Shown here: in pieces, positions 44,591-59,143 of the stretch
Position numbering within the stretch: position 1 is the first letter of the stretch
How the letters are laid out: each line of letters begins with the position of its first letter
Source of the DNA: Bacteroidales bacterium
Lineage (GTDB): Bacteria > Bacteroidota > Bacteroidia > Bacteroidales > Marinilabiliaceae
Assembly (NCBI GenBank): GCA_017539645.1
Contig: JAFYCM010000028.1
Location: 1-59,143, forward strand
Direction: 5' to 3'
Length of the DNA: 59,143 nt
Notes under the pieces: model-generated
What the model saw: only the letters and a program-made list of their open reading frames with translations
What the model was told of the DNA's origin: nothing
The model's database searches: none
Program-made: the position numbers and the translations under genes

Positions 44591-44715
44591 ATAACAATTA
44601 TTGTTTTATTCATTTTCTTATCGATATTTACTTTATATTTGCTACATATTTGCAACATTACAAAAAGCGAGACGAAGTGTTACAAAATTAAGTTAATAAG
44701 CTAATAACCAGCACT
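44591..44715. other. Candidate left end (attL) of the mobile element
   Basis: This AT-rich gap lies between the dnaK terminator and the first element gene. It holds an 11-bp tandem direct repeat ATATTTGCTAC/ATATTTGCAAC (44635-44656) and a palindrome AACAATTATTGTT (44593-44605), of the kind found at recombinase arm or core sites. The true attachment core cannot be named because the right end lies outside the window and no tRNA gene is present. Confidence 0.3.
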
Positions 44716-45264
44716 ATGCCAAAAGGCAAATTTGAGATAATAAGGAAGTGTCAAATATGTGGGGCTGAGTTCGCTGCAAAAACGATAGAGTCTATTTACT
44801 GCTCTAAAGCATGTTCAAATAAAGCGTACAGACAGCGACAAGCGCAACTTCGAGAAGAGAAAAAACTCGACGAAATAGCGAATAAGATTGACAACCGATA
44901 CGACTTAATCAATGTATCGGAAGCACATGCACTTTTCGGCGTTTGCACTGTTACTATTTATAGGCTCATACGTAAAGGCATAATCTCTCATGTCAATTTA
45001 GGAGAGAAGCAGATTCGTGTCAAGAAATCCGAACTAATGAACATATATCCCTTACGGAAGAGCATAAAAGAAACGACAAAACCTATTGCAAAGATGTATA
45101 GCATGGAACCCCAAGATTGCTATACCATCGGACAAGTAACCGAAATATATAAAGTAAGCGAAAAGACCGTTTATAAGCATATCCGCCAATATGGGATTCC
45201 GATTAGACAAATCGGCAAATATGTTTATACACCCAAATCAGAAATAGATAACTTATACAAATAG
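44716..45264 (+). CDS. Zinc-finger and double excisionase-type HTH protein
   Basis: A 182-residue DNA-binding protein. A small N-terminal zinc-binding motif CQICGAEF ... YCSKACSN (about 11-37) is followed by a basic helix and two winged HTH_17/MerR-like units (LINVSEAHALFGVCTVTIYRLIRKGII at about 60-90 and YTIGQVTEIYKVSEKTVYKHIRQYGIP at about 135-165), each with a wing ending in a SE-L/I helix. Genes of this type commonly precede Bacteroidetes tyrosine recombinases and likely help set excision direction or regulate the element. The recombinase starts 6 bases later. Confidence 0.82.
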   Translation: MPKGKFEIIRKCQICGAEFAAKTIESIYCSKACSNKAYRQRQAQLREEKKLDEIANKIDNRYDLINVSEAHALFGVCTVTIYRLIRKGIISHVNLGEKQIRVKKSELMNIYPLRKSIKETTKPIAKMYSMEPQDCYTIGQVTEIYKVSEKTVYKHIRQYGIPIRQIGKYVYTPKSEIDNLYK

Positions 45265-45270
45265 CAATCT

Positions 45271-46524
45271 ATGAAGAGAGCGCTAACAAATACAAAAGCT
45301 ACAGTCAAACTTCGTAAATCTGAATACCACAACGAATGGTATCTGATAATTGAAAGTTACCCTGTATTCAAAGCTGGTAGCACAAAACCAAGCCGTGTGA
45401 TTGAAGCACTCAATCGCACAATCACCACTCCCATTTGGGACAAGACTCGCACGGCACGAACAACAGAAGCAGGCAAAACCTATAAGCCTAAAAGAGACGC
45501 TAATGGTATTATTCAATGCAAAAGCGAGAAAGACCAAGAGTCGTGCATCTTTGCCGATAACGTGCGCAAGATCCGGCAACATGACTATGACAATGCTGCG
45601 CTTTACACAGATAAAGAGGCTGCACAAGCAGAACAAAATGCACGTTCACAATGCAATTTCATTGAATACTTCAACAAAATAACAATCGAGCGACATAAGA
45701 AGTCGTCTGAGTCAATCATTGTCAACTGGAATCGTGTTGGCGAATTACTCAAACTCTACGCTAACAGCGACAGAATCCTGTTCTCGCAAATCGACCTAAA
45801 GATGATAGAAGATTTTCGTCGTTGGATACTTACTGCGCCATGTGGTGGCAGCAAAAAAGGTACAATATCGCAGAACACAGCAGCAACATACTTCAGTATT
45901 TTCAAAGCGGGGCTCAAGCAAGCATTTATTGATGGTTATCTATATACGGACATGTCTGCCAAAGTCAAAGGCATACAAGAACTAGAGAGTCGCCGCGAGC
46001 ATCTCACAGTAGAAGAACTCAACACTCTTGTAAAGACCGAATGCGACCAACCGACAATGAAACGTGCTGCATTATTCTCAGCCCTCACTGGTTTGCGTCA
46101 TTGCGACATTCAGAAGTTGCGGTGGAGTGAAATACAAAAAGAGGGAGGCAATTACCGACTAAACTTCACTCAGCAGAAAACAAAAGGTGTTGAATACATG
46201 CCAATAAGCATGCAAGCATATCAACTATGTGGAGAACCACAAGACGATGACAAATTAGTTTTTGAGGATTTGCCAGATCCTTCGTGGATTTCAAGACCAT
46301 TGGAGCGTTGGATAAAAGCTGCTGGCATTACTCGTCGCATAACATTTCACTGTTTCCGTCATACTTACGCAACGTTACAGTTAGCAGGCGGCACTGACAT
46401 CTACACCGTTAGTAAAATGTTAGGACATACCAACGTCCGTACAACTCAGATCTACGCCAAAGTGGTTGACGAGAAGAAAGAGAAAGCCGTCGATGTGATA
46501 AAGATTGATAACCTAAAACAATAA
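45271..46524 (+). CDS. Tyrosine recombinase (integrase) of the element
   Basis: A 417-residue site-specific recombinase that should integrate and excise this element. The N-terminal arm-binding domain (about 1-120) and SAM-like core-binding domain (about 125-235) precede the catalytic domain with R276 (TGLRHCDIQKL), H360-x-x-R363 (HCFRHTYATL), H386 (LGHTNVRTT) and nucleophile Y395 (TQIYAKVV). All catalytic residues are present, so the enzyme looks active. It belongs to the Bacteroidetes integrase group with the phage_int_SAM_5 domain. Confidence 0.95.
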   Translation: MKRALTNTKATVKLRKSEYHNEWYLIIESYPVFKAGSTKPSRVIEALNRTITTPIWDKTRTARTTEAGKTYKPKRDANGIIQCKSEKDQESCIFADNVRKIRQHDYDNAALYTDKEAAQAEQNARSQCNFIEYFNKITIERHKKSSESIIVNWNRVGELLKLYANSDRILFSQIDLKMIEDFRRWILTAPCGGSKKGTISQNTAATYFSIFKAGLKQAFIDGYLYTDMSAKVKGIQELESRREHLTVEELNTLVKTECDQPTMKRAALFSALTGLRHCDIQKLRWSEIQKEGGNYRLNFTQQKTKGVEYMPISMQAYQLCGEPQDDDKLVFEDLPDPSWISRPLERWIKAAGITRRITFHCFRHTYATLQLAGGTDIYTVSKMLGHTNVRTTQIYAKVVDEKKEKAVDVIKIDNLKQ

Positions 46525-46528
46525 TAGA

Positions 46529-47431
46529 ATGAATAAAATCCAGATAACAGAAAATGAAGTGCATGACAGAATTTTTTATCGTAAAAAACATAAGAATAAG
46601 GAGCTTAACAATGCACTTTATGAAAAATATCAATCTATACACGATGATACTGGCAAAGAAGACAAAGACAAATATGTGTCAGAAATATTCAATTTAGCTT
46701 ATACCATATACGATAATTTATCAAAGGAGCAGGATTTCCCAGAAGACACTGTCGATGATTTGTATGATATGGTTCAAAAGAAGTATAATGAGGCTCATCC
46801 TTTCTGTGATATTGTTGATGAGTATTACGATCCTCTAAAAGAGTATATTTCAATAGTTTTTGTATTCGCATATGTAATATTGAACAACTCTGGCTGCTCA
46901 TATGAAGAGCTCCCATGTGCTATGAATAAAATTGAAAGAATAATTGATGATGACTATTTTGAAGAGTTCAAGCTATTGCTGAAAAAAGAAAGAAACACAT
47001 CAAACGAACCATCTTCCGAAGAGAATAGGGGAATGCAAATTATAGCCTCAACGGATGCAATAATATTATCGTTTACATATGCAAAACTTGCAACTAACCA
47101 AGACAACATTACATATCTAATGGATAGGCTTAAAGACAATGGTTTTATTGATAAAGGAACAAAAGCAGTTGATTTTAAGCGTGTATTTTCTGGTAAGGAG
47201 GTGAAAAATCCCATTCGTTGGACAACGTATTTGGGCGGTTTGTTAGACTTATTTCGTCAACTGAACAAAAACAAACTCATTAAGTTTGAGGGCAACAATA
47301 TGTACAAAATCGTTTGTTCATGTTTTATTGACACCGATGGCAATGCGATTTCAGAGGAAAAGCTTAGAAATTGCAAAATATCAAAATCAATTAATCCTCT
47401 CATTTCAAAAGCAGTTAATTTGATGAAGTGA
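46529..47431 (+). CDS. Hypothetical protein coupled to the integrase gene
   Basis: A 300-residue, acidic, mostly helical protein of unknown family with no signal peptide. It starts 4 bases after the integrase stop and is markedly AT-richer than the integrase. The C-terminal third (GFIDKGTKAVDFKRVFSGKEVKNPIRWTTYLGGLLDLFRQLNKNKLI) has a pattern I associate with unnamed C-terminal domains of Bacteroidetes mobile-element proteins, but I cannot assign a function. A regulatory role in integration or excision is only a guess from position. Confidence 0.65.
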   Translation: MNKIQITENEVHDRIFYRKKHKNKELNNALYEKYQSIHDDTGKEDKDKYVSEIFNLAYTIYDNLSKEQDFPEDTVDDLYDMVQKKYNEAHPFCDIVDEYYDPLKEYISIVFVFAYVILNNSGCSYEELPCAMNKIERIIDDDYFEEFKLLLKKERNTSNEPSSEENRGMQIIASTDAIILSFTYAKLATNQDNITYLMDRLKDNGFIDKGTKAVDFKRVFSGKEVKNPIRWTTYLGGLLDLFRQLNKNKLIKFEGNNMYKIVCSCFIDTDGNAISEEKLRNCKISKSINPLISKAVNLMK

Positions 47432-47436
47432 GTTCT

Positions 47437-47556
47437 CTCCGTACTCCGACAATATCATTTTCTTTCAAATAAATTTTCAATAAAGGCCAAAGCAAAAACG
47501 TTGGTCTTTATTGCTTTATAGCACTCCGTACTCCGTAGGCACTCCGTACGGAGTGC
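47437..47556. repeat. ACTCCGTA repeats and an 18-bp palindrome
   Basis: The 241-base gap after the hypothetical gene holds CTCCGTACTCCG (47437-47448), AGCACTCCGTACTCCGTAGG (47520-47539), and a perfect palindrome GCACTCCGTACGGAGTGC (47539-47556). The unit ACTCCGTA occurs four times in direct and inverted order. This looks like an operator or a recombinase/Rep binding cluster. Confidence 0.6.
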
Positions 47557-47600
47557 TATCCTCCAAATCCACATCTATTTGCATGTCATTTTTGCATCAA

Positions 47601-47655
47601 GCAACCGCTCGAATAAGAGGCACTCGAACGGTTGCGGTGCCTTTATTTTTTTATT
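47601..47655 (+). terminator. Terminator with a competing hairpin (possible attenuator)
   Basis: AGGCAC (47618-47623) pairs with GTGCCT (47637-47642), followed by TTATTTTTTTATTG. An overlapping, longer stem GCAACCGCTCGA (47601-47612) / TCGAACGGTTGC (47624-47635) cannot form at the same time. The first structure would stop transcription and the second would prevent it. It lies 18-70 bases before the next gene. Confidence 0.6.
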
Positions 47656-47672
47656 GTTAAAAATTAGACACA

Positions 47673-48038
47673 ATGCAAACATGTGATTTGCAAAACCCAA
47701 CTTTCGAGCAACTGCCGCAAGCAGTATCAATGCTCATCAACGAAGTAAAAGAGCTAAAAGAGTTGCTTCGTAACATTAACAACACTCCAACCGAACCTTC
47801 TGACCGTTGGTTCGACATGAAAGAATTAAGTGCATACTTGCCTGACCATCCTGCACGTCAAACCGTCTATGGGTGGATTGGCAGACACGCAATTCCTTAC
47901 CACAAGAAGGGCAAGAAACTGCAATTTTTGAAGGCTGAAATTGATTCTTGGCTCAAGACTGACAAACGAAAGACTTCCGCAGAGCTCTATAATGACGCGT
48001 TGCAATTCGTCAACACGAAGAAAGGAGGTCTGATATGA
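47673..48038 (+). CDS. Helix-turn-helix (excisionase-like) DNA-binding protein
   Basis: A 121-residue protein with an N-terminal coiled-coil-like stretch (about 10-35, NEVKELKELLRN) and a winged HTH_17 domain (about 47-95: WFDMKELSAYLPDHPARQTVYGWIGRHAIPYHKKGKKLQFLKAEIDSWL). Such proteins open the replication module of many Bacteroidetes elements and may act as excisionase or repressor. It overlaps the next gene by 4 bases (ATGA), so they are translated together. Confidence 0.8.
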   Translation: MQTCDLQNPTFEQLPQAVSMLINEVKELKELLRNINNTPTEPSDRWFDMKELSAYLPDHPARQTVYGWIGRHAIPYHKKGKKLQFLKAEIDSWLKTDKRKTSAELYNDALQFVNTKKGGLI

Positions 48039-48670
48039 GCGAACCAAAATCTATTATGCAAATAATGAGCGAAATAGCCGTAGATCCACAAGACCCTTAT
48101 GGACCTCAGCTACGCAAATGCGGCATTGTGCCATCATTGATGTTTAGCTTCTTTAGTTCGCCAATAACTAATACCAAGCCCCAAGCTGTTTTTACACCAG
48201 TCGATGTCTACAAATACATTATCAGCGACAAAGCAAAAGCGCGAACAGAGCAGCTACGCTCGTTTGTCGATGTCAAGCAAGCACGCAATTTCAAGACCTA
48301 CAACTTCGATTATTGCACATTTAGCGGCACGTTTAATACGCGCAACGACAATGCTCTTATTCAGCATTCTGGCTTGTTATGCCTTGATTTCGACCATCTG
48401 CAAAACCTTGATGATGTTCGTAGAAACCTTTTGAACGATGAGTGTTTCGACACGCAGCTCTTGTTCCGTTCGCCTTCGGGTGATGGATTGAAGTGGGTTG
48501 TTGAAATAAATATTTCGCAGATGTCGCACGCCGATTATTTCCGTGCTGTAGCCAACTATCTCGTCCAAACATACGACTTTGTGGTTGACCAATCGGGCAA
48601 AGACGTTTCTCGCGCCTGCTTCCTACCTCACGACCCCAATTGCTTTATCAATCCCAAATTTCTGAAGTGA
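48035..48670 (+). CDS. VirE N-terminal/BT4734-like primase-type protein
   Basis: A 211-residue cytoplasmic protein matching the VirE_N (PF08800) domain. The LLCLDFDHL motif resembles the metal-binding DxD of archaeo-eukaryotic primases, followed by SPSGDGLKWVVEI and DQSGKDVSRACFLPHDP, which match later motifs of that fold. It probably provides primer synthesis for replication of the element, working with the PriCT/DUF3987 protein encoded by the next gene. The stop overlaps the next ATG by one base (TGATG). These two parts are often fused in one polypeptide; here they are separate. Confidence 0.82.
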   Translation: MSEPKSIMQIMSEIAVDPQDPYGPQLRKCGIVPSLMFSFFSSPITNTKPQAVFTPVDVYKYIISDKAKARTEQLRSFVDVKQARNFKTYNFDYCTFSGTFNTRNDNALIQHSGLLCLDFDHLQNLDDVRRNLLNDECFDTQLLFRSPSGDGLKWVVEINISQMSHADYFRAVANYLVQTYDFVVDQSGKDVSRACFLPHDPNCFINPKFLK

Positions 48671-50415
48671 TGAGCAATAAGACATTCAATCCCTTTGAGT
48701 GGCTAGATCCAACGCCCAAGCCTTGCAATATAAGCATGAAATATGGACAATCGGATATGTACACCAACATTGAAGAAATTACCCAACAAATTGAATCCGC
48801 AAATATCGACATAGCCCCGAGCTATGCCGAATGGCGCGATTTGGGCTTTGCTCTCGCTGATGCTTTGGGCGAAGATGGTCGTAGATATTACCATCGCCTT
48901 AGCCGTTTCTATCCAAACTATTCTTCAGAAGAAACAGACAAACAATTCAACGCTTGCATCAATGCTCATGGGCACGGAATAACTATTCGCACGCTTTTCC
49001 ATCTTGCCAAACAAGCAGGCATTTCATTGGGAAAATCCAGTTCATTTCCCCACAATTCCCCCAAATCCCCAATTGGGGGAATAGAGGATTTGGAGGAAAT
49101 GGAGAATTTAAAACCGATGCCAACGTTCTCGCAAAACATTCAGCAGTCGCTACCAACTATGCTGGCGCAAATAATTACACATACGCACACCTATGAGGAG
49201 GCTGATTTGTTGCTGTTGGGCGCGCTGACGGTCTTTTCGGCTTGTCTGCCCAATGTTTATGGTATTTATGGCGGAAGGGAAGTTTCCCCAAATCTGTTTG
49301 TATTTATCACAGCGCAAGCCTCAGCTGGCAAAGGGCGTTTGACGCTTTGTAGACACCTCGTGCAGCCTATTCACGAGCGTTTGAAGCAACTCTACGCTGC
49401 CGAACTTGAGGAATACAAACGCTTGCAAAAGGAGTATGCGGAGGACAAGCATTGCAACGAACCACCGCAAGAGCCGCCAATAAGAACGCTATTTATTCCT
49501 GCCAACAGCAGCGCTACTTCAGTCTATCAAGTTTTGAATGAGAACAAAGGCGTGGGGCTGATATTTGAGACTGAGGGCGATACGCTTGCCAATACGTTCA
49601 AGTCGGATTATGGCAATTTCTCTGATGGATTTCGCAAGGCATTCCATCATGAGATGATTTCCTACACGCGCCGCAAAGACCGTGAATTTGTTGAACTTGC
49701 GCGACCTCGCTTGTCGGCACTTTTATCGGGCACGCCTCGCCAAATTCTTTCGCTCATTCCCGATGCAGAGAATGGACTCTTCAGCCGTTTTATATTCTAT
49801 TATATGAATGTGCGTTTGGAGTGGCGCGATGTGTTTGCCGACAACGAAGAGGCGCTTGATGGCTATTTTGAGCAGCTTGGCAAACAGTTCTATCTGCTCT
49901 ACAATACGCTTCAATCGGTGCAGTCGATTCGATTTGTACTCACGCCAGCGCAACAAATGGAGTTCAACAAGTTCTTCGGCCAAGTGCAGACGAAATACGC
50001 CAATCTTTTTGGCCTCGACATAGTGGCATCGGTGCGCCGTTTGGGGCTAATAACGTTTCGCATAGCTATGATACTATCTACGCTGCGCATCGATGACATT
50101 GGGCATTTCACTACGACAATAACCTGCGTCGATGATGATTTCAAATCTGCATTAACAATTGCCGAAACGCTACTAAAACATACCGCCAAAGTTTTCGGAA
50201 TGTTGCCAACAACAGAGGCAACGACCTCCAATGCACCAACAGTTATCAAGCAGACGTTTCTCGACAATCTGCCACCAACGTTTGACCGCAAAACGTACCT
50301 GTCAGTTGCCCAAAAATTGAGTATTCCCGCCAAAACAGCCGAAAAATACATCAATCGTTTTTGCCTCAGCGGTCAACTCAAGCACATTGCGCATGGTCAA
50401 TACGAGAAAACATAA
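48670..50415 (+). CDS. PriCT-2 and DUF3987 replication protein
   Basis: A 581-residue protein. The start at 48670 overlaps the previous stop and is preferred over an ATG 30 bases earlier. A PriCT_2 domain (about 30-118; SYAEWRDLGFALADALGEDG) is followed by DUF3987 (about 160-500), a helicase/ATPase-like domain with the loop QASAGKGRLTLC, and a C-terminal HTH-like stretch. It likely completes the primase-helicase of the element. Residues about 127-149 (PHNSPKSPIGGIEDLEEM) come from a REP-like repeat embedded in frame, an insertion not expected in the family. Confidence 0.85.
   Translation: MSNKTFNPFEWLDPTPKPCNISMKYGQSDMYTNIEEITQQIESANIDIAPSYAEWRDLGFALADALGEDGRRYYHRLSRFYPNYSSEETDKQFNACINAHGHGITIRTLFHLAKQAGISLGKSSSFPHNSPKSPIGGIEDLEEMENLKPMPTFSQNIQQSLPTMLAQIITHTHTYEEADLLLLGALTVFSACLPNVYGIYGGREVSPNLFVFITAQASAGKGRLTLCRHLVQPIHERLKQLYAAELEEYKRLQKEYAEDKHCNEPPQEPPIRTLFIPANSSATSVYQVLNENKGVGLIFETEGDTLANTFKSDYGNFSDGFRKAFHHEMISYTRRKDREFVELARPRLSALLSGTPRQILSLIPDAENGLFSRFIFYYMNVRLEWRDVFADNEEALDGYFEQLGKQFYLLYNTLQSVQSIRFVLTPAQQMEFNKFFGQVQTKYANLFGLDIVASVRRLGLITFRIAMILSTLRIDDIGHFTTTITCVDDDFKSALTIAETLLKHTAKVFGMLPTTEATTSNAPTVIKQTFLDNLPPTFDRKTYLSVAQKLSIPAKTAEKYINRFCLSGQLKHIAHGQYEKT
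49047..49110. repeat. REP-like CCCC...GGGG repeat inside the DUF3987 gene
   Basis: Contains ATTCCCCCAAATCCCC, AATTGGGGGAAT and ATAGAGGATTTGGAGG. Its reverse complement resembles the repeat at 50591-50648 (shared AAATTC-C--ATTTCC and AAATCCTC runs). The copy keeps the reading frame and adds about 20 Pro/Ser/Glu-rich residues. Confidence 0.6.
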
Positions 50416-50434
50416 CCAAATACCGCTCAAAAAG

Positions 50435-50490
50435 GCTCCACAAACGCTCCACAGCGCTCCACAGTGCTCCACGCAGAGCTACACACGCTG
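50435..50490 (+). repeat. GCTCCACA direct-repeat cluster
   Basis: Four copies of GCTCCACA (or GCTCCACG) start at 50435, 50446, 50456 and 50466 (spacing 11, 10 and 10 bases), followed by degenerate GCTACACAC. The near-helical spacing resembles iterons or a stacked operator. It lies in the 50416-50777 gap after the DUF3987 gene, which otherwise holds only repeats. Confidence 0.6.
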
Positions 50491-50590
50491 CAACGGCTTG
50501 CAATCGCACCCAAACGGCGCCCACAAGCGCTGAAATGGCTTTATTGCACTATCGTTGCGGTGTCTGTGGAGCTTCATTTCTCCCTTCAAA

Positions 50591-50648
50591 TTCCCTATTT
50601 CCCCTAAATCCTCCAAATCCTCCGCTGGGGAAATGGAGGATTTTGGGG
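50591..50648. repeat. REP-like palindrome CCCC...GGGG
   Basis: CCCCTAAATCCTCCA (50601-50615) pairs with TGGAGGATTTTGGGG (50634-50648), 14 of 15 bases. A related short form CCCCCTAAGGGGGG is at 50759-50772, beside the next gene's start. Such GC-rich repeats are dispersed in many Bacteroidetes genomes. Confidence 0.7.
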
Positions 50649-50777
50649 CATAAAAGACACTTTGGTGAGGCACTAACAGAGTAATTTGTGACCTCAGATC
50701 CAATTTGTTAGTTGTTGCACTATGGAATTGAACCTGCCAATAATAATACCCCCTTTATCCCCCTAAGGGGGGAAATT

Positions 50778-51221
50778 TTGAGCGAAGCCCAAATCGAAAA
50801 TGGAAATAAAAAATCCAATGAAAATACCGATGGCGAAAATGATGCTTTGCCCACGGCGGTAGATGCTAAGCCCGACCTACCGAAAAAACCAAGGGGCGGC
50901 GCAAAATTCAGTTTTGAACTCGATGCGCGACCAGAATGGATCGCTGAAAATATGGCGCAAATTTTCAAGGATTACGTCGATTACCGAAGAGATATGGGAA
51001 AGGCTTTTCGGTCAGAAAAACAAGCGCACGATAGCTATGATGAATTGACGCATTTATCGGGTGGAGACCCCGAAATAGCTATGAAAATCGTGAAGAAAAC
51101 GAGTAGTAGTGGGTGGCAAAGCTATAATCCGTTCATTGGCGGTGGCAAAAACGTTCGCAATAACGTGACGCAAAACAATGGCGTGATTAACAGCAACAAG
51201 AAGAATTTCAAAGGGTGGTAG
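50778..51221 (+). CDS. DUF7833-like replication protein
   Basis: A 147-residue protein whose start is uncertain. Possible starts are TTG at 50778, just after the GGGGGG of a REP-like repeat, or TTG at 50712. The ATG at 50722 is in another frame that stops after 14 codons, so the repeat may have displaced the original start. The C-terminal half (about 55-125; FKDYVDYRRDMGKAFRSEKQ ... YDELTHLSGGDPEIAMKIVKKTSSSGWQSYNPF) matches the DnaD-like C-terminal domain common in Bacteroidetes element replication proteins. It lies 2 bases before the loader gene and is likely part of replication initiation. Confidence 0.7.
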   Translation: MSEAQIENGNKKSNENTDGENDALPTAVDAKPDLPKKPRGGAKFSFELDARPEWIAENMAQIFKDYVDYRRDMGKAFRSEKQAHDSYDELTHLSGGDPEIAMKIVKKTSSSGWQSYNPFIGGGKNVRNNVTQNNGVINSNKKNFKGW

Positions 51222-51223
51222 TT

Positions 51224-52015
51224 ATGGAAACAGCAGTTAAGCAACAATCAAGAGCTGACGCATACGCACAAAGAGTTGGTATTCAGCAACTGATAGATAC
51301 ACCACAAAAGGCTTGGCGAGTAGCTAATTACACTCGCAAAGGCATTGTGTGGAATATCAACGGTTTAAGACAAGTCGCGATTGACAGAATGGTTCCCGCG
51401 TTTAATTGGCGTTGCAAATGTGCTGGTGTTCCTGTTCCAGAGACGTTTACTGCCGAACAAGGTATTAGAGCATTGGTTCATTGGGAATTAGCAAAAGAGG
51501 TGGGTGAAAGTAGCGGTGCTTCGTATACTTGGCTTCCGCAATATACTGCAATTGTGGATTGGCTATGCAACAATGATTGCAAAGGGCTACTACTCTATGG
51601 CACTTGTGGTCAAGGTAAAACGTTGATGATGAAGATTATCAGTCGTTTATTGCCACTTCTATATGGTGGAATATTCGAACGGCAAATCATAGATGCAGTA
51701 GACCTTGACAGCCGAATATCCGACTTGCGCCAATCGCGAATTGTCTTTGTTGATGATATTGGCACAGAGTTTATCAGTGCATTTCGCAATATGTCGTTCG
51801 GTATGTTGGTAGACAGCCTTGAAAAGAAGAAAGGCATACTGATAGCAAGTACAAATCTTGATTTTGCATCGATGTACGAACGTTACGGCGAACGAGTGTG
51901 CGACCGACTGAAAGGCTTATGCCGAATGATAGAATTTGATGGAGAAAATTCATTTCGAGATGCGCAGTTACAAAGCGTGAAATTTTCAACAACTAATAAC
52001 AATAACAATCAATAA
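51224..52015 (+). CDS. DnaC-like AAA+ helicase loader
   Basis: A 263-residue ATPase. The ATG at 51224 follows the previous stop by 2 bases. Walker A is GTCGQGKT in LLLYGTCGQGKTLMM, Walker B is RIVFVDDIGTE, and the sensor 1-like ASTNLDF follows; this spacing is typical of DnaC/IstB-type loaders. It should load the host replicative helicase onto the element's origin. An N-terminal basic region (about 1-100, RKGIVWNINGLRQ ... FNWRCKCAG) may bind partners. It is the last clearly identifiable gene of the replication module. Confidence 0.83.
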   Translation: METAVKQQSRADAYAQRVGIQQLIDTPQKAWRVANYTRKGIVWNINGLRQVAIDRMVPAFNWRCKCAGVPVPETFTAEQGIRALVHWELAKEVGESSGASYTWLPQYTAIVDWLCNNDCKGLLLYGTCGQGKTLMMKIISRLLPLLYGGIFERQIIDAVDLDSRISDLRQSRIVFVDDIGTEFISAFRNMSFGMLVDSLEKKKGILIASTNLDFASMYERYGERVCDRLKGLCRMIEFDGENSFRDAQLQSVKFSTTNNNNNQ

Positions 52016-52030
52016 ACAAACAAAAAGATT

Positions 52031-52285: not shown

Positions 52286-52319
52286 CACGATCAATAACAA
52301 ACAACTAAAAACAAGAGTT

Positions 52320-52601
52320 ATGGAGGTAAAGACAAAATTCTGTACTGGCGATTTCGTTTTTTTTATGACGAACAGCCTTCCTCAGATAGGACGCATAGAA
52401 CAAATACATATTCTTCTGCGAAGAGTAGATAGTAAAAGAAAAAAAGAAAAAGTATTCACAAGTTTTATTTCGTATGATGTAAAAGACGAAGTGAATAATA
52501 AATATGAATTAGACGAATTCAAACTCTTCGCAACGAAAGAGGAACTCATAAAAACATATACCGAGTATATAAATGATTTAGATGATAGGAATTTCGATTA
52601 G
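52320..52601 (+). CDS. Small hypothetical protein with SH3/KOW-like start
   Basis: A 93-residue protein, not recognised. The N-terminal part (FCTGDFVFFMTNSLPQIGRIEQIHI) has the short strand pattern of KOW/SH3-like barrels, followed by a lysine-rich turn and an acidic helix ending YINDLDDRNFD. AT-rich, like its neighbours. Confidence 0.6.
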   Translation: MEVKTKFCTGDFVFFMTNSLPQIGRIEQIHILLRRVDSKRKKEKVFTSFISYDVKDEVNNKYELDEFKLFATKEELIKTYTEYINDLDDRNFD

Positions 52602-52613
52602 GAGCAACGTGTT

Positions 52614-52784
52614 ATGGAAACAATGAAGTGTTTATTTACTCGCTACATTCCAATTAATCATCAAGTAGTGATTGAATGTACCATCTATTGCGAGAAACCA
52701 AGATGCAAAACAGTGATTGAGGATTTTGGAGAATGGTATTTCCACCGAATGATGCAGAGAATTAGAGAGAAAGAGGAGTATTAA
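52614..52784 (+). CDS. Small hypothetical protein, 56 residues
   Basis: Read from the sequence: METMKCLFTRYIPINHQ... ending RIREKEEY. It holds three cysteines (C6, C22, C26) and C31 in ECTIYCEKPRC, which might bind a metal. It begins 12 bases after the previous stop and ends just before a terminator. Real by position and coupling, function unknown. Confidence 0.5.
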   Translation: METMKCLFTRYIPINHQVVIECTIYCEKPRCKTVIEDFGEWYFHRMMQRIREKEEY

Positions 52785-52794
52785 TCACGAAAGC

Positions 52795-52862
52795 CCGAAA
52801 GCACACGATATTTTTCTGTTGTATTGTTTTTTGGTGTTTGCGTGTGCTTTCGGTGCTTTTTG
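52795..52862 (+). terminator. Long-loop terminator ending the replication-module transcript
   Basis: A perfect 13-bp stem, CCGAAAGCACACG (52795-52807) and CGTGTGCTTTCGG (52841-52853), with a 33-base T-rich loop, followed by TGCTTTTTG. Confidence 0.75.
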
Positions 52863-52878
52863 ATAAACAAATTCAATT

Positions 52879-53070
52879 ATGACTAAAATGACAAAAGAAA
52901 GCAAAACAAAAATCTATTTCGTTGGTCACGTCAGCATAGGACCTAAAAAAGAAATCGTTATTACACCTAAGCACGATAGCGAAATAGGAATACTTAACGA
53001 TAGTATTGATTTTGACATAAAACTCAGTTTTGAGGATATAATGAGAATACTTGAAATGATAAAACAATGA
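52879..53070 (+). CDS. Small hypothetical protein
   Basis: A 63-residue beta-alpha protein, not recognised, with the pattern IYFVGHVSIG ... IVITPKHDS ... LSFEDIMRILEMI. It opens a new run of small genes after the terminator and overlaps the next gene by 4 bases (ATGA). Confidence 0.55.
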   Translation: MTKMTKESKTKIYFVGHVSIGPKKEIVITPKHDSEIGILNDSIDFDIKLSFEDIMRILEMIKQ

Positions 53071-53366
53071 GTTACATATATCAAAACATAGAGAGCATAC
53101 GTGATGAGATAGTGGACAACGTATGCCGCGAGGTGGAAAACTCGAAACTTACAGGCGTGTTCTTCTTCAGAGCCTTTGCCGATGATAACAACGATGGTAT
53201 TGATTGGTCGGCAATAGGCGATGTAAAGGCAAAACGAATTAATAAAGACAACTATCAAATGGAAGCTCACTTCACCATACACGATTTTGAAGATAATGAG
53301 CAAGACCAATTCACTTGTGACGTGGAAGTTGAAAATGGTTTTACCAAAACAAGGGAGATACAATAA
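53067..53366 (+). CDS. Small hypothetical protein
   Basis: A 99-residue acidic protein, not recognised. An initial helix (ESIRDEIVDNVCREVEN) is followed by beta strands (VFFFRAFADDNND, YQMEAHFTIHDFEDN). It overlaps the gene before it by 4 bases and the gene after it by 1 base, so three genes are translated as a coupled block. Confidence 0.55.
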   Translation: MSYIYQNIESIRDEIVDNVCREVENSKLTGVFFFRAFADDNNDGIDWSAIGDVKAKRINKDNYQMEAHFTIHDFEDNEQDQFTCDVEVENGFTKTREIQ

Positions 53367-53656
53367 TGGCATACGTAGAAATGGAATTTGACGTAGACGA
53401 TATTGATTGGAGCTACGAATCGGAATACACTTGTATTCGCACCATCGAATGTATTCTTGATAGTCACGATGGAATAAAAGAGGAAGTTGCTCAAAAGCTC
53501 AAAATCGAACGCCCTGATACGCGAATGCTCAGCAGAAAGGCATTTGCGCAATCGTCAATCGAGTATAAGCGCAAATTATTCGGTGAACTATTTAGCGATT
53601 TACTTCCGAACGAATTGGCAATGGTAAAGGAATTAATAACAAAGCATAGTAAATAA
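53366..53656 (+). CDS. Small hypothetical protein, paralog of the next gene
   Basis: A 96-residue protein. Its C-terminal helix, LLPNELAMVKELITKHSK, is nearly identical to that of the gene that follows (LMPNELEMIKELITKHSK). The N-terminal half is acidic (DVDDIDWSYES). Function unknown. Confidence 0.6.
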   Translation: MAYVEMEFDVDDIDWSYESEYTCIRTIECILDSHDGIKEEVAQKLKIERPDTRMLSRKAFAQSSIEYKRKLFGELFSDLLPNELAMVKELITKHSK

Positions 53657-53667
53657 TAAGTAAGAAA

Positions 53668-53919
53668 ATGGAATATTCAATAAGTAAGAAGAACATAAAA
53701 TATTCAAAAGATATACGCGAATTTGCAGCTCGTTTGCACCGAATCAAACCTATGGGAGAGGAGGAAAAGTTGAAATGGAGAGAACTGAAACAAGCAGTTG
53801 ACAAAATTGTGGAAGTATCAATTGATGATAAACGTTTATGCTTCGGTTCACTAATTAGTAGATTAATGCCTAATGAATTGGAAATGATAAAAGAATTAAT
53901 AACCAAGCATAGCAAATAA
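53668..53919 (+). CDS. Small hypothetical protein, paralog of the previous gene
   Basis: An 83-residue basic helical protein. The last 18 residues match the preceding gene at 15 of 18 positions while the N-terminal parts differ, suggesting duplication followed by N-terminal exchange, or selection on one binding helix. It starts 11 bases after its paralog. Confidence 0.6.
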   Translation: MEYSISKKNIKYSKDIREFAARLHRIKPMGEEEKLKWRELKQAVDKIVEVSIDDKRLCFGSLISRLMPNELEMIKELITKHSK

Positions 53920-53943
53920 CATACATTAAACTAATAAAGAAGT

Positions 53944-54099
53944 ATGAATCCTTTATTCGTTGCTTGGGTTTTGATGCTGCATCTGCATTTTGGAGTAACA
54001 ATGGTTGAGTACAACCGCAATAAGGATAAGTTACTCCGACAAATTATTCTTGATGCGATAGCCTATGTGTTATTCGTCGTAATGGTATGGCTTATGTAG
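53944..54099 (+). CDS. Small membrane protein, 51 residues
   Basis: Read from the sequence: two hydrophobic segments (about 3-19, FVAWVLMLHLHFGVT, and 36-51, DAIAYVLFVVMVWLM) joined by a basic loop (EYNRNKDK). A two-helix hairpin in the membrane with no known family. In phage-like elements such proteins can be holins, but nothing else here supports this. Confidence 0.5.
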   Translation: MNPLFVAWVLMLHLHFGVTMVEYNRNKDKLLRQIILDAIAYVLFVVMVWLM

Positions 54100-54149
54100 C
54101 ATTCAAAAACATATATCTTTGTAAAAAGAAACCTCATAGAAATAAAACT

Positions 54150-54344
54150 ATGGCTAAGATTACACAACAAGAGTATAGCGAGATTATGAAGCAAAAAAGA
54201 GCATTATTTGCTCTGCTTCTCAAAAAGACAGGCGTAAAAAAAGAAGAAATATATAGACTCGCTATGGAAGAATTTATAAACGCCAATTGGGACGAATTAA
54301 CCACAACAGAACGTAGGAAGTTTAACAAGTTAGTGTTTGTATGA
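54150..54344 (+). CDS. Candidate antitoxin of the PIN toxin
   Basis: A 64-residue basic helical protein. The start at 54150 is favoured over an upstream ATG that adds 21 unlikely residues. It overlaps the PIN-domain gene by 4 bases (ATGA), the typical antitoxin-toxin order and coupling. It contains KQKRALFALLLKKTGVKKEEIYRLAMEEFI, perhaps a DNA-binding or toxin-binding helix. It is not a recognised antitoxin family. Confidence 0.5.
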   Translation: MAKITQQEYSEIMKQKRALFALLLKKTGVKKEEIYRLAMEEFINANWDELTTTERRKFNKLVFV

Positions 54345-54784
54345 AAGGTAAGTATATAAGCGTGTATGTTGATTCTAACATACTTATAAACTATTGCAAT
54401 CGAATAAAAGTGGATTGCGATGCGCTTAAGTACTTATTCAAAAAGCGTAGACGTGAAGTGTTATTCACCTCGACGCTTGCCATTGCGCAAACCATTGCAA
54501 GATTGCAGACATACACCAAAAAAAGGAAAGCATATACGAGTGAACAAGTGGTTGCGATGCTCGAAGATGTACTTCCGCATTTTACAATCATTGATTTTAC
54601 TCAACAAGACATAATTAATGCGTTGGCTGTGGATTGTAAAGACTTGGAAGATTGTCTACACTTTATAATCAGCAGAAAGCGGAAATGTAGTTGTATACTT
54701 ACAAATAATACCAAAGACTTTTCTGCATTCAACGTTGATTGTGTAACACCTCAATTAGGAGTACTAAAAACCAAAATTCAATAA
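54341..54784 (+). CDS. PIN-domain protein, candidate VapC-like toxin
   Basis: A 147-residue protein with the PIN fold: the first acidic residue D11 in VYVDSNILI, the central acidic cluster D101-L-E103-D104 in CKDLEDCLHF, and D126 in TNNTKDF after the strand CSCILTN. PIN proteins are Mg2+-dependent ribonucleases; as toxins they cut tRNA or rRNA. Together with the gene it overlaps, it may keep the element in the cell or defend it. Confidence 0.78.
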   Translation: MKGKYISVYVDSNILINYCNRIKVDCDALKYLFKKRRREVLFTSTLAIAQTIARLQTYTKKRKAYTSEQVVAMLEDVLPHFTIIDFTQQDIINALAVDCKDLEDCLHFIISRKRKCSCILTNNTKDFSAFNVDCVTPQLGVLKTKIQ

Positions 54785-54803
54785 TTAGACTTCTCTTTTT
54801 TTT

Positions 54804-54842
54804 GAGAGCCGATGAAGCAAAATTCGTCGGCTCTTGCTTTTT
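54804..54842 (+). terminator. Terminator after the PIN-domain gene
   Basis: AGAGCCGATGAA (54805-54816) pairs with TTCGTCGGCTCT (54823-54834) with one G-U pair, followed by TGCTTTTTA. Confidence 0.8.
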
Positions 54843-54950
54843 ACCCCAAAATCATAGCATATAAATGCAAAAACACGCTCATAATTATCCAAAACAACAG
54901 AAAAATTAACATTTGATTAACACTTTTCGCGCGTACTTAACATAACGAAA

Positions 54951-55030
54951 GTGACTGAGCGTGACTTAGCGCGACTTAAAGTGATTTATCGTGACTTAAA
55001 GTGACTGAAAGCTACTTAGCGCGACTTTGA
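54951..55030 (+). repeat. Eight tandem 10-bp repeats (iteron-like)
   Basis: Eight head-to-tail 10-bp units, exactly in phase, begin at 54951, 54961, 54971, 54981, 54991, 55001, 55011 and 55021. Consensus G(T/C)GACTTA(G/A)(C/A): GTGACTGAGC, GTGACTTAGC, GCGACTTAAA, GTGATTTATC, GTGACTTAAA, GTGACTGAAA, GCTACTTAGC, GCGACTTTGA. A partial unit (GCGTACTTAA) is at 54931. Nothing coding explains this spacing, close to one helical turn. Confidence 0.9.
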
Positions 55031-55101
55031 ATATTTATGCGCTGTAATTTTGCTACGTGCAAGCAAAAGAAATGCACTTAAATGCACTTAGCAACTAACA
55101 A

Positions 55102-56232
55102 ATGAAAAAAGGTTTAGTATTTGGACTTATAGGTGGCGCACTTGGACTTCTTTACTTGTGGAGTAAGAAGTCATCAGTGACCAATATGATAGATAAGCTA
55201 ACTATCACCCCACGTTTGGGAGGTAGTTTGAAACTTGACGCAGGCTCAACGACCACATCTAATAAGATTGGAAAGTTTTTGCAGAAGGTTGTAAACTACG
55301 TGACCGATAGCGCATACGTCGTTGTGCCTATCAACGTTGATTTTGCAAACCGCTCGTCGCAAGAAATGAAGATTTCCGTGCAGTCAGTTATGGCGTACAT
55401 AGGCGAAGCGATGGTTGCAAGCAGCGTGCCTGCTGTTTCGAGCGTTGTGGTAAAGGCAAACGCCGTTTCTACGCTTGAAGGCATCAAGATGCAGATAGGC
55501 ACACGCACATTGCTCTCGATTTTCGGCACGAACATACAAGATTGGCTCACGAAGGGCAACTTCGACAACATTACCAAAGACCTAAAAATTAAGATTGGCG
55601 CGATACTCAACGATGCTTTTACGTTTGATATTATGCTCGACTTGGGTAAGAGTGGTCAAGTTGACACGACAGGCGCAGTGACCATTAGCGGTTTGGGACT
55701 TACCGCCGCATCGAAAAGGACAATTAGACCTCTTTCCGACTATATTTCACTAATCCCCGAAAAAACAAATCTCCGCCACCACGACTATATCGTGAAGGCA
55801 AACGGCTCGGTTGTAGACACTGCAAACATTATGCACCAAGCCGCATCAGCGGACGTGGAGAGTGTTCGTCGTTTGGCACAATCGCTACAACGCGACACTC
55901 TCACCGCTACGCTGCAATCTATTTTTGATTTCGTCTACACACACATACAATACGAACTCGACAGCCGATTTACTGAGCAAGTGCGCCGACCACTACGTGC
56001 GCTCTACGACCAAAAGGGCGATTGTGACTGCTTTGCAACGCTCATTGGCTCTATGCTCGAAGCTCTGAACATTCCGTACAAATTCCGCATAGCGGCATAC
56101 TCGGCAGGGCGTTTCCAACACGTCTATGTGATTGTACCAACGACCGACAATGTGCGCGGCTACTATGTTGTAGACCCTGTACTCGACAAATGCTTTGACG
56201 AGAAACCAACCACCAAATTCCTCGATGTATGA
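55102..56232 (+). CDS. Membrane-anchored LEA14-like and transglutaminase-like protein
   Basis: A 376-residue protein. An N-terminal membrane anchor (about 4-20, GLVFGLIGGALGLLYLW) is followed by a beta-sandwich (about 60-185; VVVPINVDFANRSSQEMKI and AYIGEAMVASS) similar to LEA14/WHy domains. A transglutaminase-like cysteine protease domain (about 260-376) has the triad C308-H340-D358 (GDCDCFATL, FQHVYVIV, YYVVDPV). Related domain pairs occur in phage genomes, but I cannot name the role. It begins the unit after the repeat array and overlaps the next gene by 4 bases. Confidence 0.65.
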   Translation: MKKGLVFGLIGGALGLLYLWSKKSSVTNMIDKLTITPRLGGSLKLDAGSTTTSNKIGKFLQKVVNYVTDSAYVVVPINVDFANRSSQEMKISVQSVMAYIGEAMVASSVPAVSSVVVKANAVSTLEGIKMQIGTRTLLSIFGTNIQDWLTKGNFDNITKDLKIKIGAILNDAFTFDIMLDLGKSGQVDTTGAVTISGLGLTAASKRTIRPLSDYISLIPEKTNLRHHDYIVKANGSVVDTANIMHQAASADVESVRRLAQSLQRDTLTATLQSIFDFVYTHIQYELDSRFTEQVRRPLRALYDQKGDCDCFATLIGSMLEALNIPYKFRIAAYSAGRFQHVYVIVPTTDNVRGYYVVDPVLDKCFDEKPTTKFLDV

Positions 56233-56720
56233 AAAACACAATAGACCTCTGTTTGCTTACCCCTATTGACATTTTCGGTATGACAATAGATGAACGCCGT
56301 GAGTATATCGAAATGGCAATGAAAGCTCAGTATTTGGGCAAAAAGTACTATTGCCCTGCTCTCTCTTGTGACGTAAGTGTAAATCAAAGAGGTATACACG
56401 AAACTGCTGTTCACGCAGCAAAGTCGGTAGAATCAACGATTGTAGCTCTAAATCTACACGAAGTGATTGAAAATGCGCAATTCATTCGTTTTGATAAGCC
56501 TAAAAAGGGCGTTCAAACAAAGCGTTTCCGTGCAGCGCAGACGTTGATTTTGCGTACGTATTTCAATAAGTTGACAGCGTTTCTCACCATAGTAGAAACG
56601 AAGAATGGCGCAAGAATAGAGTATTGCGCAACAGGGAAGAAGATGATTCCCAATTGGCTAAAAATAAAACTCTCGGACAAGGAACCTATATATCCCATTA
56701 GTCCGAGAGCTATAAAGTGA
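56229..56720 (+). CDS. LPD3-like polyvalent-protein domain protein
   Basis: A 163-residue basic protein. The stretch from about 55 to 145 (RGIHETAVHAAKSVESTIVAL ... EVIENAQFIRFDKPKKGVQTKRF ... TAFLTIVETKNGARIEY) resembles the LPD3 domain (large polyvalent protein-associated domain 3) of phage and conjugative-element proteins, here as a stand-alone protein. Its function is unknown. It overlaps the genes on both sides (ATGA and TGATG), so three genes form one coupled unit. Confidence 0.55.
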   Translation: MKNTIDLCLLTPIDIFGMTIDERREYIEMAMKAQYLGKKYYCPALSCDVSVNQRGIHETAVHAAKSVESTIVALNLHEVIENAQFIRFDKPKKGVQTKRFRAAQTLILRTYFNKLTAFLTIVETKNGARIEYCATGKKMIPNWLKIKLSDKEPIYPISPRAIK

Positions 56721-59143
56721 TGCACAAGCATCTGATTTCAAAAGTAGAACAACAGATTGAATTATGCAAATATAAATCTATGGATATTCAATATTTAGAC
56801 GGCATAGACATTCAATATCTTGATGGCACAAACGCAGCTAACGAGGTTGTGTTGGACCGAATAAACGGCTTGGCAAGACGACGTGCCGACCAACGTATAG
56901 CAACCATACAGACGCTTACACGCGGACTGACTAATAAGATGGCTGCACAGGCTGAGGACATTGCAAACGGAAACGATTTCCGTGGTTTCAATGGCGATGG
57001 CTCTGTGGCTGATGAAGAAATGATACGCACACACCTTATGCGCACAAAGGAGGTAGCCGATGCAGCACCATCGATGGTGGCTACGTATGGCAACCCGCAA
57101 ACGCTATCCAATATGATTGGGTATGTTCTCAATCGTTGGGACACGCCAGAGCGCGAAGAAGCTATCGACTATATGATAGCTGAGGAAAAGAAACTTGAAG
57201 GATTAGGACGCATAGACACTAACGCCGACACCCAACGTGGTGAACTAACAGCGGAAGCATACTATGACGTGGATTCATATATGTATGGACTTGGAGCTGC
57301 CAAAAGCACATTTTTTGCAAGCGTAAAAAGAGCACTCAAGCCAAACCTAACAACAGAAGCACAAGACATAGTAGCGTCCAATCCTGCACTACAACGCATT
57401 CGCGCCGAAAGACGCAATGCGATAGCACAAGCACGTCGGGCAAAAGGGCGTGCGAACGATGCCGATGTACGTGGATTAAACGGCACGGACGATTCAGACA
57501 TCGAATGCTTGATGAACGGCACAGACCTACAATATGCGTTCACAGGCGAAAATCCTCTAACAAGCATTGCTCGCTACATACAGCGAACACAGCGTGTTGC
57601 AGAACAGCACCCCGAATACTTTGATTCGGCTGCCGACAGCCAAGCGGTTGCAAACGCTTGCTCAATTCTGCTCCGTTCGTGGGAGAACGAGAAACTCCGC
57701 AATGCGGCTTTCGATTCCATCATCTTGGCTTGTGATGATGTTAACAGCGAGTTGAACGGAAGATTACGTAAGGCTCTAAAGAAAGCAGCAAAGAAGATAA
57801 AATCGGCGGCAAAGAAAGTAGGCTCAGCCGTAAAGACAGCCGCTAAAAAAGTAGCTACGGCGGTTAAGAAAGCGGTAAAAAAAGTAGGTAAAGCGATAGC
57901 AAAAGTGGCTAAAAAGGTTTGGAAGTTTATCGTACGATTCAATCCTCTCACATTGCTTATCCGCGCAGGCATATTGGGCTTTTGCCGCCTAAATATGTTC
58001 AAAGTTGCAAACAAGTGCTATATAGGCTCACTGAGCAAAGAGGAAGCACTAAAGAAAGGCGCAACCGCAGCCGAATGGGAGAAGTCTAACAAAGCCTACG
58101 GACATCTCAAAAACGCCTATACTAAGATTGGCGGTAAAGAGAGCAAACTGAAAAAGGTTCTCGAAAAGGGCAACAAAAAGAAGTGGAACGGCACGGAATA
58201 CCCGACCGATGGTAACTCCATCAAAAGCGCAGCTCAGAACGTCAATGCAGCCGACAACAAGGAAGCACAGGCTGATATGGACTACGATGAAACTTTGAAG
58301 GAATATCAAAAGAATGGTTACGTTAGCGACTCCACCATCAGCACCGACACCGCCACACAACAGAAAAAGGAGGAAGTTACGATTATTGAAAATGAGCGTA
58401 CCGCAAAGGCGGCTACCAAACTCTACGAGACTGACGAAACTACTGGTAAAGTGCTTGTAACTATACCAAAAGCAGCTAAAGTGCTTGTAGACACGGCGCA
58501 GACGAGCGGCAACTTCATTGCAGCCACTTACAATGGTAAAAATGGTTGGGTAACCAAAAACGACCTCGCAGGGCTTGGCAATTGCGATGCAGAGAGTGTT
58601 GCAGTCATTGGTCTTGGCGCAATCTACGATGAGTACACTACTATGGGACTTGGCGAGCCTGCCACTGCAACCGCTGTTGCTTCGGCATCGAGCGTCATTG
58701 CTTCTATAATGGCTAAAATCAAGAGCATTTTTGGCGTAGCCAAGAATGTAGTAGACAAAGTTAAGTCAGTTGCAAGTACGGCAAAAAAGGTTGCTAACGT
58801 CGTGAAAGACCCGAAAGGGGCTATCAAGAGCGCAGCAACAAAAGCAGCCGACAAAATAACCAATGGCGCAGCGTCGAGCATAAAGAACACCGCAAGCGCA
58901 ATAAAGAGTAACGTACAAACAGCTAAGCAACTTGTAAATCAAGCAAAGAGTGTTGCTAAAACCGCTGTAAGTACAGCCAATCAGAAAGTGGCTAAAGCGG
59001 CTGTAAAAGCGGCTAAACCTACCGCAACAACAACGCCAATTGTCAAGACGAACACTAACATCGTTACGCCTACGGCTACTAAAACGCAGACAACAACGAC
59101 AACAAGTGTAACGTCGAAGCCACGCACACAACAGCAAGTGCAA
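56720..59143 (+). CDS. Very long Lys/Ala-rich protein with SH3-like domain (3' end outside window)
   Basis: An open frame of 808 codons runs to the window edge without a stop; I translated it by hand. The ATG at 56720 overlaps the previous stop (TGATG) and is preferred; the ATG at 56780 (MDIQYLDGIDIQYLDG) is an alternative. After a charged helical part (about 20-345), a basic stretch of KKA/KKV repeats (about 351-401) leads into a hydrophobic segment RFNPLTLLIRAGILGFCRLN (about 405-425), then an SH3-like module (about 574-616, VTIPKAAKVLVDT ... NGWVTKNDL) and a long amphipathic Ala/Lys/Thr-rich tail (about 665-808). Not recognised. It could be a virion or DNA-associated structural protein. 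Confidence 0.75.
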   Translation, partial: MHKHLISKVEQQIELCKYKSMDIQYLDGIDIQYLDGTNAANEVVLDRINGLARRRADQRIATIQTLTRGLTNKMAAQAEDIANGNDFRGFNGDGSVADEEMIRTHLMRTKEVADAAPSMVATYGNPQTLSNMIGYVLNRWDTPEREEAIDYMIAEEKKLEGLGRIDTNADTQRGELTAEAYYDVDSYMYGLGAAKSTFFASVKRALKPNLTTEAQDIVASNPALQRIRAERRNAIAQARRAKGRANDADVRGLNGTDDSDIECLMNGTDLQYAFTGENPLTSIARYIQRTQRVAEQHPEYFDSAADSQAVANACSILLRSWENEKLRNAAFDSIILACDDVNSELNGRLRKALKKAAKKIKSAAKKVGSAVKTAAKKVATAVKKAVKKVGKAIAKVAKKVWKFIVRFNPLTLLIRAGILGFCRLNMFKVANKCYIGSLSKEEALKKGATAAEWEKSNKAYGHLKNAYTKIGGKESKLKKVLEKGNKKKWNGTEYPTDGNSIKSAAQNVNAADNKEAQADMDYDETLKEYQKNGYVSDSTISTDTATQQKKEEVTIIENERTAKAATKLYETDETTGKVLVTIPKAAKVLVDTAQTSGNFIAATYNGKNGWVTKNDLAGLGNCDAESVAVIGLGAIYDEYTTMGLGEPATATAVASASSVIASIMAKIKSIFGVAKNVVDKVKSVASTAKKVANVVKDPKGAIKSAATKAADKITNGAASSIKNTASAIKSNVQTAKQLVNQAKSVAKTAVSTANQKVAKAAVKAAKPTATTTPIVKTNTNIVTPTATKTQTTTTTSVTSKPRTQQQVQ

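Follow-up and report, generated by a model that had tools for sequence, protein, structure and literature searches.

A contig of a Bacteroidales bacterium carries part of a provirus, very probably of a tailless membrane-containing virus, beside a separate dnaK-associated island

The stretch of 59,143 nucleotides analysed here, hereafter the window, is the entire contig JAFYCM010000028.1 (G000:C101) of a Bacteroidales bacterium of the Marinilabiliaceae, and its right end falls within an open reading frame (ORF). An initial annotation, made from the letters of the window alone, had read everything from dnaK to this end (44591–59143) as one integrated element, possibly a new type of phage or phage-plasmid, with a complete recombinase, a replication module and an unusual trio of transglutaminase, LPD3 and Lys/Ala-rich proteins. 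We find two units that had been wrongly merged, a dnaK-associated island (44591–50738) and, from 50739, part of a virus of which a complete relative, here called element A, is present in another genome (G002:C16). The features of the virus part are as follows (aa, amino acids).

50712–51221, forward strand: 3' part of a virus replication gene; the complete relative has a gene of 357 aa, part of which is 87% identical
51215–52015, forward strand: DnaC-like helicase loader of the virus (PHROG 3277, 3.4e-21), 90% identical to the relative's copy
54087–54784, forward strand: possible toxin-antitoxin pair, a small ORF (54087–54344) and a PIN-domain ORF (54341–54784; PIN, 5e-7)
54938–55027, no strand: array of 10-bp direct repeats directly before the virion genes
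55102–56232, forward strand: membrane-anchored transglutaminase-fold protein (376 aa), predicted virion protein (Transglut_core, 1.5e-7)
56229–56720, forward strand: LPD3-domain protein, accessory (PF18798, 1.5e-7, above the cut-off)
56717–59143, forward strand: Lys/Ala-rich protein (ORF), cut by the contig end and continued in frame on contig C9; the relative's protein has 901 aa and a C-terminal hydrophobic span

The loader, the repeat array, the likely toxin-antitoxin pair and the three proteins before the contig end had all been recognized initially, and each was recovered here. The window genes for which the complete relative has a match do not include the small ORF and the PIN-domain ORF, and LPD3 is no fixed member of a trio, the relative having no gene at that place. 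A purpose-built profile detects three LPD3-like genes in the window's own element; by Pfam, that of the window lies above the cut-off and that of C9 just below it. The transglutaminase-fold protein, initially read as a putative LEA14/transglutaminase protein, starts with hydrophobic residues, and its N-terminal half has no Pfam match above the cut-off. In distant lineages, a single protein of about 800 aa matches both the transglutaminase and the Lys/Ala-rich families.

The C-terminus of the Lys/Ala-rich protein is encoded, in frame, at the start of contig C9, and the element goes on over C84; because both are collinear with the complete relative, we infer the order C101-C9-C84. The transglutaminase, LPD3 and Lys/Ala-rich proteins, the last with a hydrophobic span at its end, are followed by an SH3 protein with a span and by proteins of 158 and 197 aa; then come an LPD3-like protein, proteins of 390, 120, 174, 130 and 322 aa, and repeat and fibre-like proteins (YadA_stalk, 2.6e-8, in the fibre-like one); the last part encodes a 177-aa protein with a span, an M15 peptidase (1e-20), methyltransferases, a 1011-aa methylase, a strawberry-notch helicase, a RecA/Sak4-like ATPase (AAA_24 domain, 1.3e-10) and an IS30 transposase. 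Hydrophobic spans were identified by visual inspection. Family scans covered 32 distinct proteins of the element (window from 50739, C9 and C84), 31 of them against Pfam and/or PHROGs and the transposase against NCBIfam only, the Lys/Ala-rich protein being scanned over its window part; the cytosine methyltransferase genes and a 200-aa gene of C84, an 81-aa ORF of C9, several short window ORFs between 52320 and 53919 and genes in the contig gaps lay outside these scans. Among the scanned proteins, no terminase, portal, HK97 capsid, tape measure or sheath family was found, tail matches being limited to fibre-type families and all coming from the one YadA-stalk protein. The same scans likewise gave no relaxase or transfer genes above a curated cut-off; a Relaxase_C coiled-coil match (E 0.4) and a type IV secretion match, T4SS (E 0.032), fell below it. 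The initial annotation had named a relaxase, conjugation genes, a terminase, a portal or tail genes downstream as grounds for abandoning a tailless virus; the scanned proteins, those of C9 and C84 included, brought up none of these beyond the fibre-type matches. The FtsK/HerA-type packaging ATPase that it had suggested looking for did not turn up either among the 32 proteins, the ATPase present being the RecA/Sak4-like one.

The 197-aa protein is capsid-like and predicted to fold as a jelly roll, with room for one jelly roll only; the double jelly-roll capsid protein initially suggested as a target is not what was found. The predicted structure is that of a single jelly-roll capsid protein with the fold seen in Sulfolobus polyhedral virus 1 (SPV1). 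A sequence search of the PDB with the capsid profile gave 11 weak matches, the best to tropomyosin (E 0.0067), and no virus capsid. Gene order around the capsid gene is the same in most of 14 loci, the 322-aa gene being displaced in one of them (L071), and 13 of the 14 have one capsid-family gene. The remaining locus, L063, a single IMG/VR record, has two such genes in tandem (2715–4186; 243 and 218 aa). In 10 of 12 cases, capsid gene and ATPase domain share a contig; in G377, the domain is on another contig, and in G447, only its N-terminal part was matched; in several loci, the ATPase gene is split into two ORFs or interrupted by a stop.

Taken together, the jelly-roll capsid-like protein, the proteins with hydrophobic spans and profile matches to virion proteins of Salisaeta icosahedral phage 1 (SSIP-1, see below) support the initial suggestion of a tailless, membrane-containing virus. 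We consider, with a probability of about three in four, that the stretch from 50739 to the right end of the window is the left part of a provirus running on over C9 and C84, and very probably that of a tailless, icosahedral, membrane-containing double-stranded DNA (dsDNA) virus of Bacteroidota with a capsid of upright single jelly-roll protein. Gene content, conserved gene order and the predicted fold with its matches are observed directly; they suggest that a particle is formed and that it holds a membrane. The 197-aa protein would then form the capsid lattice above an inner membrane, with the transglutaminase, Lys/Ala-rich, SH3 and 158-aa proteins as putative membrane or core proteins, whereas vertices might be formed by the small conserved proteins and spikes by the YadA-stalk and repeat proteins. 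The LPD3, strawberry-notch helicase and methylase proteins may be packaged or act early as DNA-protection factors, the M15 peptidase would lyse the cell, and for packaging or core assembly, the RecA/Sak4-like ATPase is the candidate.

In the genus of the window, the element probably inserts like a transposon, the IS30-family transposase acting on 25-bp inverted ends and leaving a 3-bp duplication. For element A, a matching site without the element is present on contig C14 of the window's genome. Comparison with this empty site reveals an insertion of 36,763 bp flanked by a duplicated CCA (3 bp), with the ends GGCACACTCCATTTTATAGCGCAAC and CGCACATTCCATTCGTTATCGCAAC. The transposase gene of element A runs into its right end and is 88% identical to the copy on C84, which matches the NCBIfam IS30 transposase NF033563 (2.4e-73). 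Transposase, terminal inverted repeats and a short target duplication, the hallmarks of IS30-type elements, are thus all present in element A, and the transposase would move the whole unit. Alternatively, the IS30 gene could belong to an ordinary insertion sequence (IS) that landed at the right end of a virus integrated by another route. An end-like sequence does lie 161 bp before the transposase gene, its first 11 bases equal to those of the left end (16 of 25 overall), so that an IS of 1.17 kb can be drawn. Yet the outer ends of element A agree at 19 of 25 positions, a value never reached in 200,000 random pairs, all other 25-mers of the element stay at 17 or below when compared with either end, the empty site defines the insertion as 36,763 bp with its 3-bp duplication, and in two genomes the transposase is found three times, always beside such an element; we therefore regard this alternative, which concerns the transposon step only, as rather unlikely. 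The three copies (G002:C16, C84 and C23) came from a search of 18 genomes (E up to 1e-10), the other 16 of which gave no transposase match. For C84 and C23, it is the right end that is seen, presumably an end by its likeness to that of element A. The element on C23 (L093) is a further, more diverged one in the window's genome, with its own IS30 transposase at the end and beside a hemW-like gene (named by eye). The mode of integration seems to vary across the family, because the 16 genomes lack a transposase match and one record, G450, has a tyrosine-recombinase-like gene (named by eye).

The left boundary of the virus part in the window is marked by the DNA match to element A, which begins only at 50739, within the relative's 357-aa gene, whereas to the left of this point the window carries a helix-turn-helix (HTH) protein, an integrase, a 300-aa protein, a second HTH protein, a primase and a DUF3987 protein. 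The units join at 50738/50739, coinciding with a 25-bp sequence that is the right end of the element on C23. The dnaK flank, the island and the junction comprise the following.

42611–44518, forward strand: dnaK, chromosomal flank (ORF; DNA similarity to the dnaK region of G002 stops at about 44585)
44591–50738, forward strand: separate integrative island, outside the virus (HTH and integrase directly after dnaK in four of four fetched genomes)
44716–45264, forward strand: HTH protein of the island (HTH_17, 2.1e-18; homologues in fetched genomes)
45271–46524, forward strand: tyrosine recombinase of the island (Phage_int_SAM_5, Phage_integrase, Arm-DNA-bind_5; homologues after dnaK 56–74% identical)
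47673–48038, forward strand: small HTH protein of the island (HTH_17, 2.2e-7)
48035–48670, forward strand: primase-like N-terminal protein of the island (BT4734-like_N, 3.5e-19)
48640–50415, forward strand: PriCT_2/DUF3987 replication protein of the island (DUF3987, 3.8e-63; PriCT_2, 2.8e-16)
50714–50738, no strand: IS30-type terminal repeat, outer side rightward, marking the junction (50713–50738 identical to 17978–18003 of C23, the end of the C23 element)

The 21-bp core of the terminal repeat has no second copy in the window with up to three mismatches allowed. The recombinase is as complete as had been described, with three Pfam domains above the cut-off, and the primase-like and PriCT/DUF3987 genes are in place, but these genes and the position after dnaK belong to the island and not to the virus. 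A DNA search matched the island unit in 16 of 100 genomes of relatives, four of which (G019, G061, G010 and G001) were fetched for context. In G019 and G061, homologues of the HTH protein, integrase, small HTH protein, primase and DUF3987 protein follow dnaK in the same order, and other genes come after them, those of G019 resembling type I restriction genes to the eye; the G010 contig stops after HTH protein and integrase; in G001, HTH protein, integrase and small HTH protein precede other genes, among them a DnaC-like one 36% identical to the loader of the window. The 3' side of dnaK thus appears as a hot spot for the integrase island, with restriction- or defence-like cargo, judged by eye, in two of the four genomes; elsewhere, such or other genes come next, and not a virus as in the window. 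We know of no name for dnaK-associated integrative islands of Bacteroidales. The right flank of dnaK yielded no attachment site of the island: in G002, the genes that follow dnaK come in another order, and those that match are found at other places on C101.

On the alternative reading of one integrated element after dnaK, integration and replication would be served by its own recombinase and primase unit; this would explain why the units adjoin on one contig and on the same strand, and it would also accommodate the DnaC-like gene after the dnaK integrase of G001 and the tyrosine-recombinase-like gene (404 aa) near the virus block in at least one family record, the above-mentioned G450. We consider this alternative decidedly unlikely, because other genomes likewise have the unit immediately after dnaK, the complete relative lacks it and an IS30-type end lies exactly at the junction. 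Furthermore, apart from the G001 gene, no virus protein of the window was matched in the fetched stretches, and the left 1.9 kb of the virus, searched for in the genome of the window, were not recovered. Accordingly, the tailless-virus reading of the initial annotation is well supported, whereas its element boundaries are not.

The search for the left 1.9 kb gave just two short matches, both inside a clustered regularly interspaced short palindromic repeats (CRISPR) array with 46-bp repeats (L144, 2115–2690; G000:C47, about 48114–48689). Seven spacers were read from this array and two of them match element A, at 29 of 29 and 22 of 23 aligned bases, both targets lying within the first 1.1 kb of element A, a part that the window's copy lacks. 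Deletion and an assembly join are both candidates for the disappearance of the left part, and its loss as a means of avoiding self-targeting would be a guess. As to defence genes, a second family member in G002 (C21; L033/L034) holds a bacteriophage exclusion (BREX)-like set (BrxC, 7.8e-251, PglX, PglZ and BrxA) between its replication and transglutaminase genes, and Mu-like tailed-prophage genes (baseplate, tape measure; by eye) directly adjoin this element on the right in L033.

Counting the window's own genome, 21 of the 100 genomes in the relatives set have a match to the transglutaminase family, many of them to the transglutaminase region alone, and 21 of 393 Bacteroidales genomes, again including the own, have one to the capsid family. 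In IMG/VR, one capsid query retrieved three records, another two more and two others, distant capsid proteins, none; the 397-aa protein likewise brought up no relative when viral contigs were scanned. Among 72,556 plasmid records, the capsid family was found on two replicons of Persicobacter psychrovividus NBRC 101262, one being the 53-kb circular plasmid pPP10, which carries the capsid gene, seven further families, rep, parA and parB and is typed as non-mobilizable by PLSDB. In this strain (NZ_AP025302.1, NZ_AP025293.1; L155, L156, L157), the capsid block thus occurs on the 53-kb plasmid and again on a plasmid of 1.07 Mb; its counterpart of the 197-aa protein has 280 aa (WP_332922705.1). The phage-plasmid idea of the initial annotation holds for the pPP10 relative only, which is indistinguishable from a virus integrated into a plasmid, and gained no support from the window's copy.

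Family profiles derived from the loci were compared with the 57 annotated proteins of SSIP-1, with 839 ORFs and 1,140 shuffled sequences as controls. The transglutaminase family matches structural protein gp34 at 71.6 bits, over the transglutaminase domain only (control maximum 19.1), the ATPase family matches gp40 at 38.0 bits (control maximum 5.6) and the 158-aa family gp44 at 15.0 bits (control maximum 5.6); gp44 precedes gp45–gp47 in SSIP-1 as the 158-aa gene precedes the capsid gene here. The capsid model has a Foldseek match, I1ZBH9, of the same length as gp46 and with no profile match alongside. The methylase pairs with gp43, a large methyltransferase annotated as structural, at 81.6% in hhalign, a link of low weight that does not rise above controls in hmmsearch (3.4 bits vs 6.0 in shuffled sequences). 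The ATPase was rejected as a specific link to SSIP-1: tblastn gave 42 phage records with similar proteins, RadA and Bacteroides phages included and Salisaeta in two, and the gp40 match is weighted low because the family is so widespread. Several observations weigh against our interpretation. The 158-aa match to gp44 is weak in hhalign (11%), which together with the widespread ATPase family points against the SSIP-1 link; the capsid proteins have no sequence or profile match to gp46 or gp47; the 390-, 120-, 174-, 130- and 322-aa proteins yielded no SSIP-1 counterpart (best hhalign 21.2%, the 322-aa family to gp29); the DnaC-like gene of G001 speaks against a sharp division of labour between island and virus; and the internal end-like sequence described above adds to these.

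A non-viral element that builds a cell-surface or vesicle-like assembly from jelly-roll proteins would fit the facts that no particle is known, that transglutaminase, SH3 and Lys/Ala-rich membrane proteins also exist outside viruses and that one relative resides on a plasmid with par genes. The endolysin-type gene (PHROG 894, 9.7e-39), the polyvalent-type proteins, the CRISPR spacers that target the element, the virion-protein families in common with SSIP-1 and the relatives in IMG/VR make it very unlikely. Finally, a tailed phage or its satellite with terminase, portal and tail genes too diverged for recognition is highly improbable, despite the fibre-type matches and the occurrence of the ATPase family in tailed phages too, given the 32 scanned proteins without a match to the hallmark families listed above, the lack of such genes recognizable by eye in records G450 and G451, and the conserved capsid-like protein modelled as a jelly roll.

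If the virus reading is correct, such particles would be common in Bacteroidales and would be overlooked by searches for tail and terminase genes: tblastn of 50,697 phage records with the transglutaminase, 397-aa and capsid proteins returned nothing. A path from one to two jelly-roll capsid proteins has been proposed (in the section cited, PMC8812541), and it would become testable in bacteria, a collection-numbered strain carrying a family member. At somewhat less than even odds, we further suggest that widespread temperate tailless viruses of Bacteroidota with one upright single jelly-roll capsid protein are the bacterial counterpart of the proposed ancestor of two-protein viruses, that one lineage became a transposable virus with an IS30 transposase as its integrase, and that the tandem pair of L063 may show the duplication step.

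Among the passages returned by a search of open-licence papers, none describes these proviruses and none reports an IS30 transposase integrating a dsDNA virus, a use of the enzyme that would be a new one by that search. As of 2016, upright single jelly-roll capsids were described, in the portion cited, from viruses of extreme environments only (PMC4958249). SPV1 (Portogloboviridae) has an archaeal host, in contrast to the bacterial one here, and is stated, in the text available, to be without a packaging ATPase. Sphaerolipoviridae and relatives (SH1, HHIV-2, HCIV-1, P23-77) have, according to the cited sections, an FtsK-like packaging ATPase and a pair of such capsid proteins (PMC4958249, PMC8812541), whereas neither a second capsid protein nor an FtsK-like ATPase was recognized in the window's element. 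FLiP and PhiCjT23 are described, in the part cited, as lipid-containing phages of Bacteroidota with related proviruses, but they have single-stranded DNA (ssDNA) genomes below 10 kb, are kin of double jelly-roll viruses, and their dif sites suggest XerC/D integration (PMC9719478). SSIP-1, which was isolated from a halophile and has a genome of 43.8 kb with an annotated sigma factor and DNA invertase, is labelled ‘single jelly roll?’ in one excerpt (PMC6260650) and grouped with two-capsid-protein viruses in another (PMC4958249), whereas the window's family has one capsid-family gene in most loci. As for the transposase, inoviruses are small filamentous phages with ssDNA. Those of the genus Vespertiliovirus are said, in the passage cited, to use IS3 and IS30 transposases for replication by transposition (PMC6668415). 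The element described here resembles them and IS30 insertion sequences in its IS30 transposase, short inverted ends and 3-bp duplication, but differs in that the transposase is carried by a dsDNA-virus-like unit of 36.8 kb.

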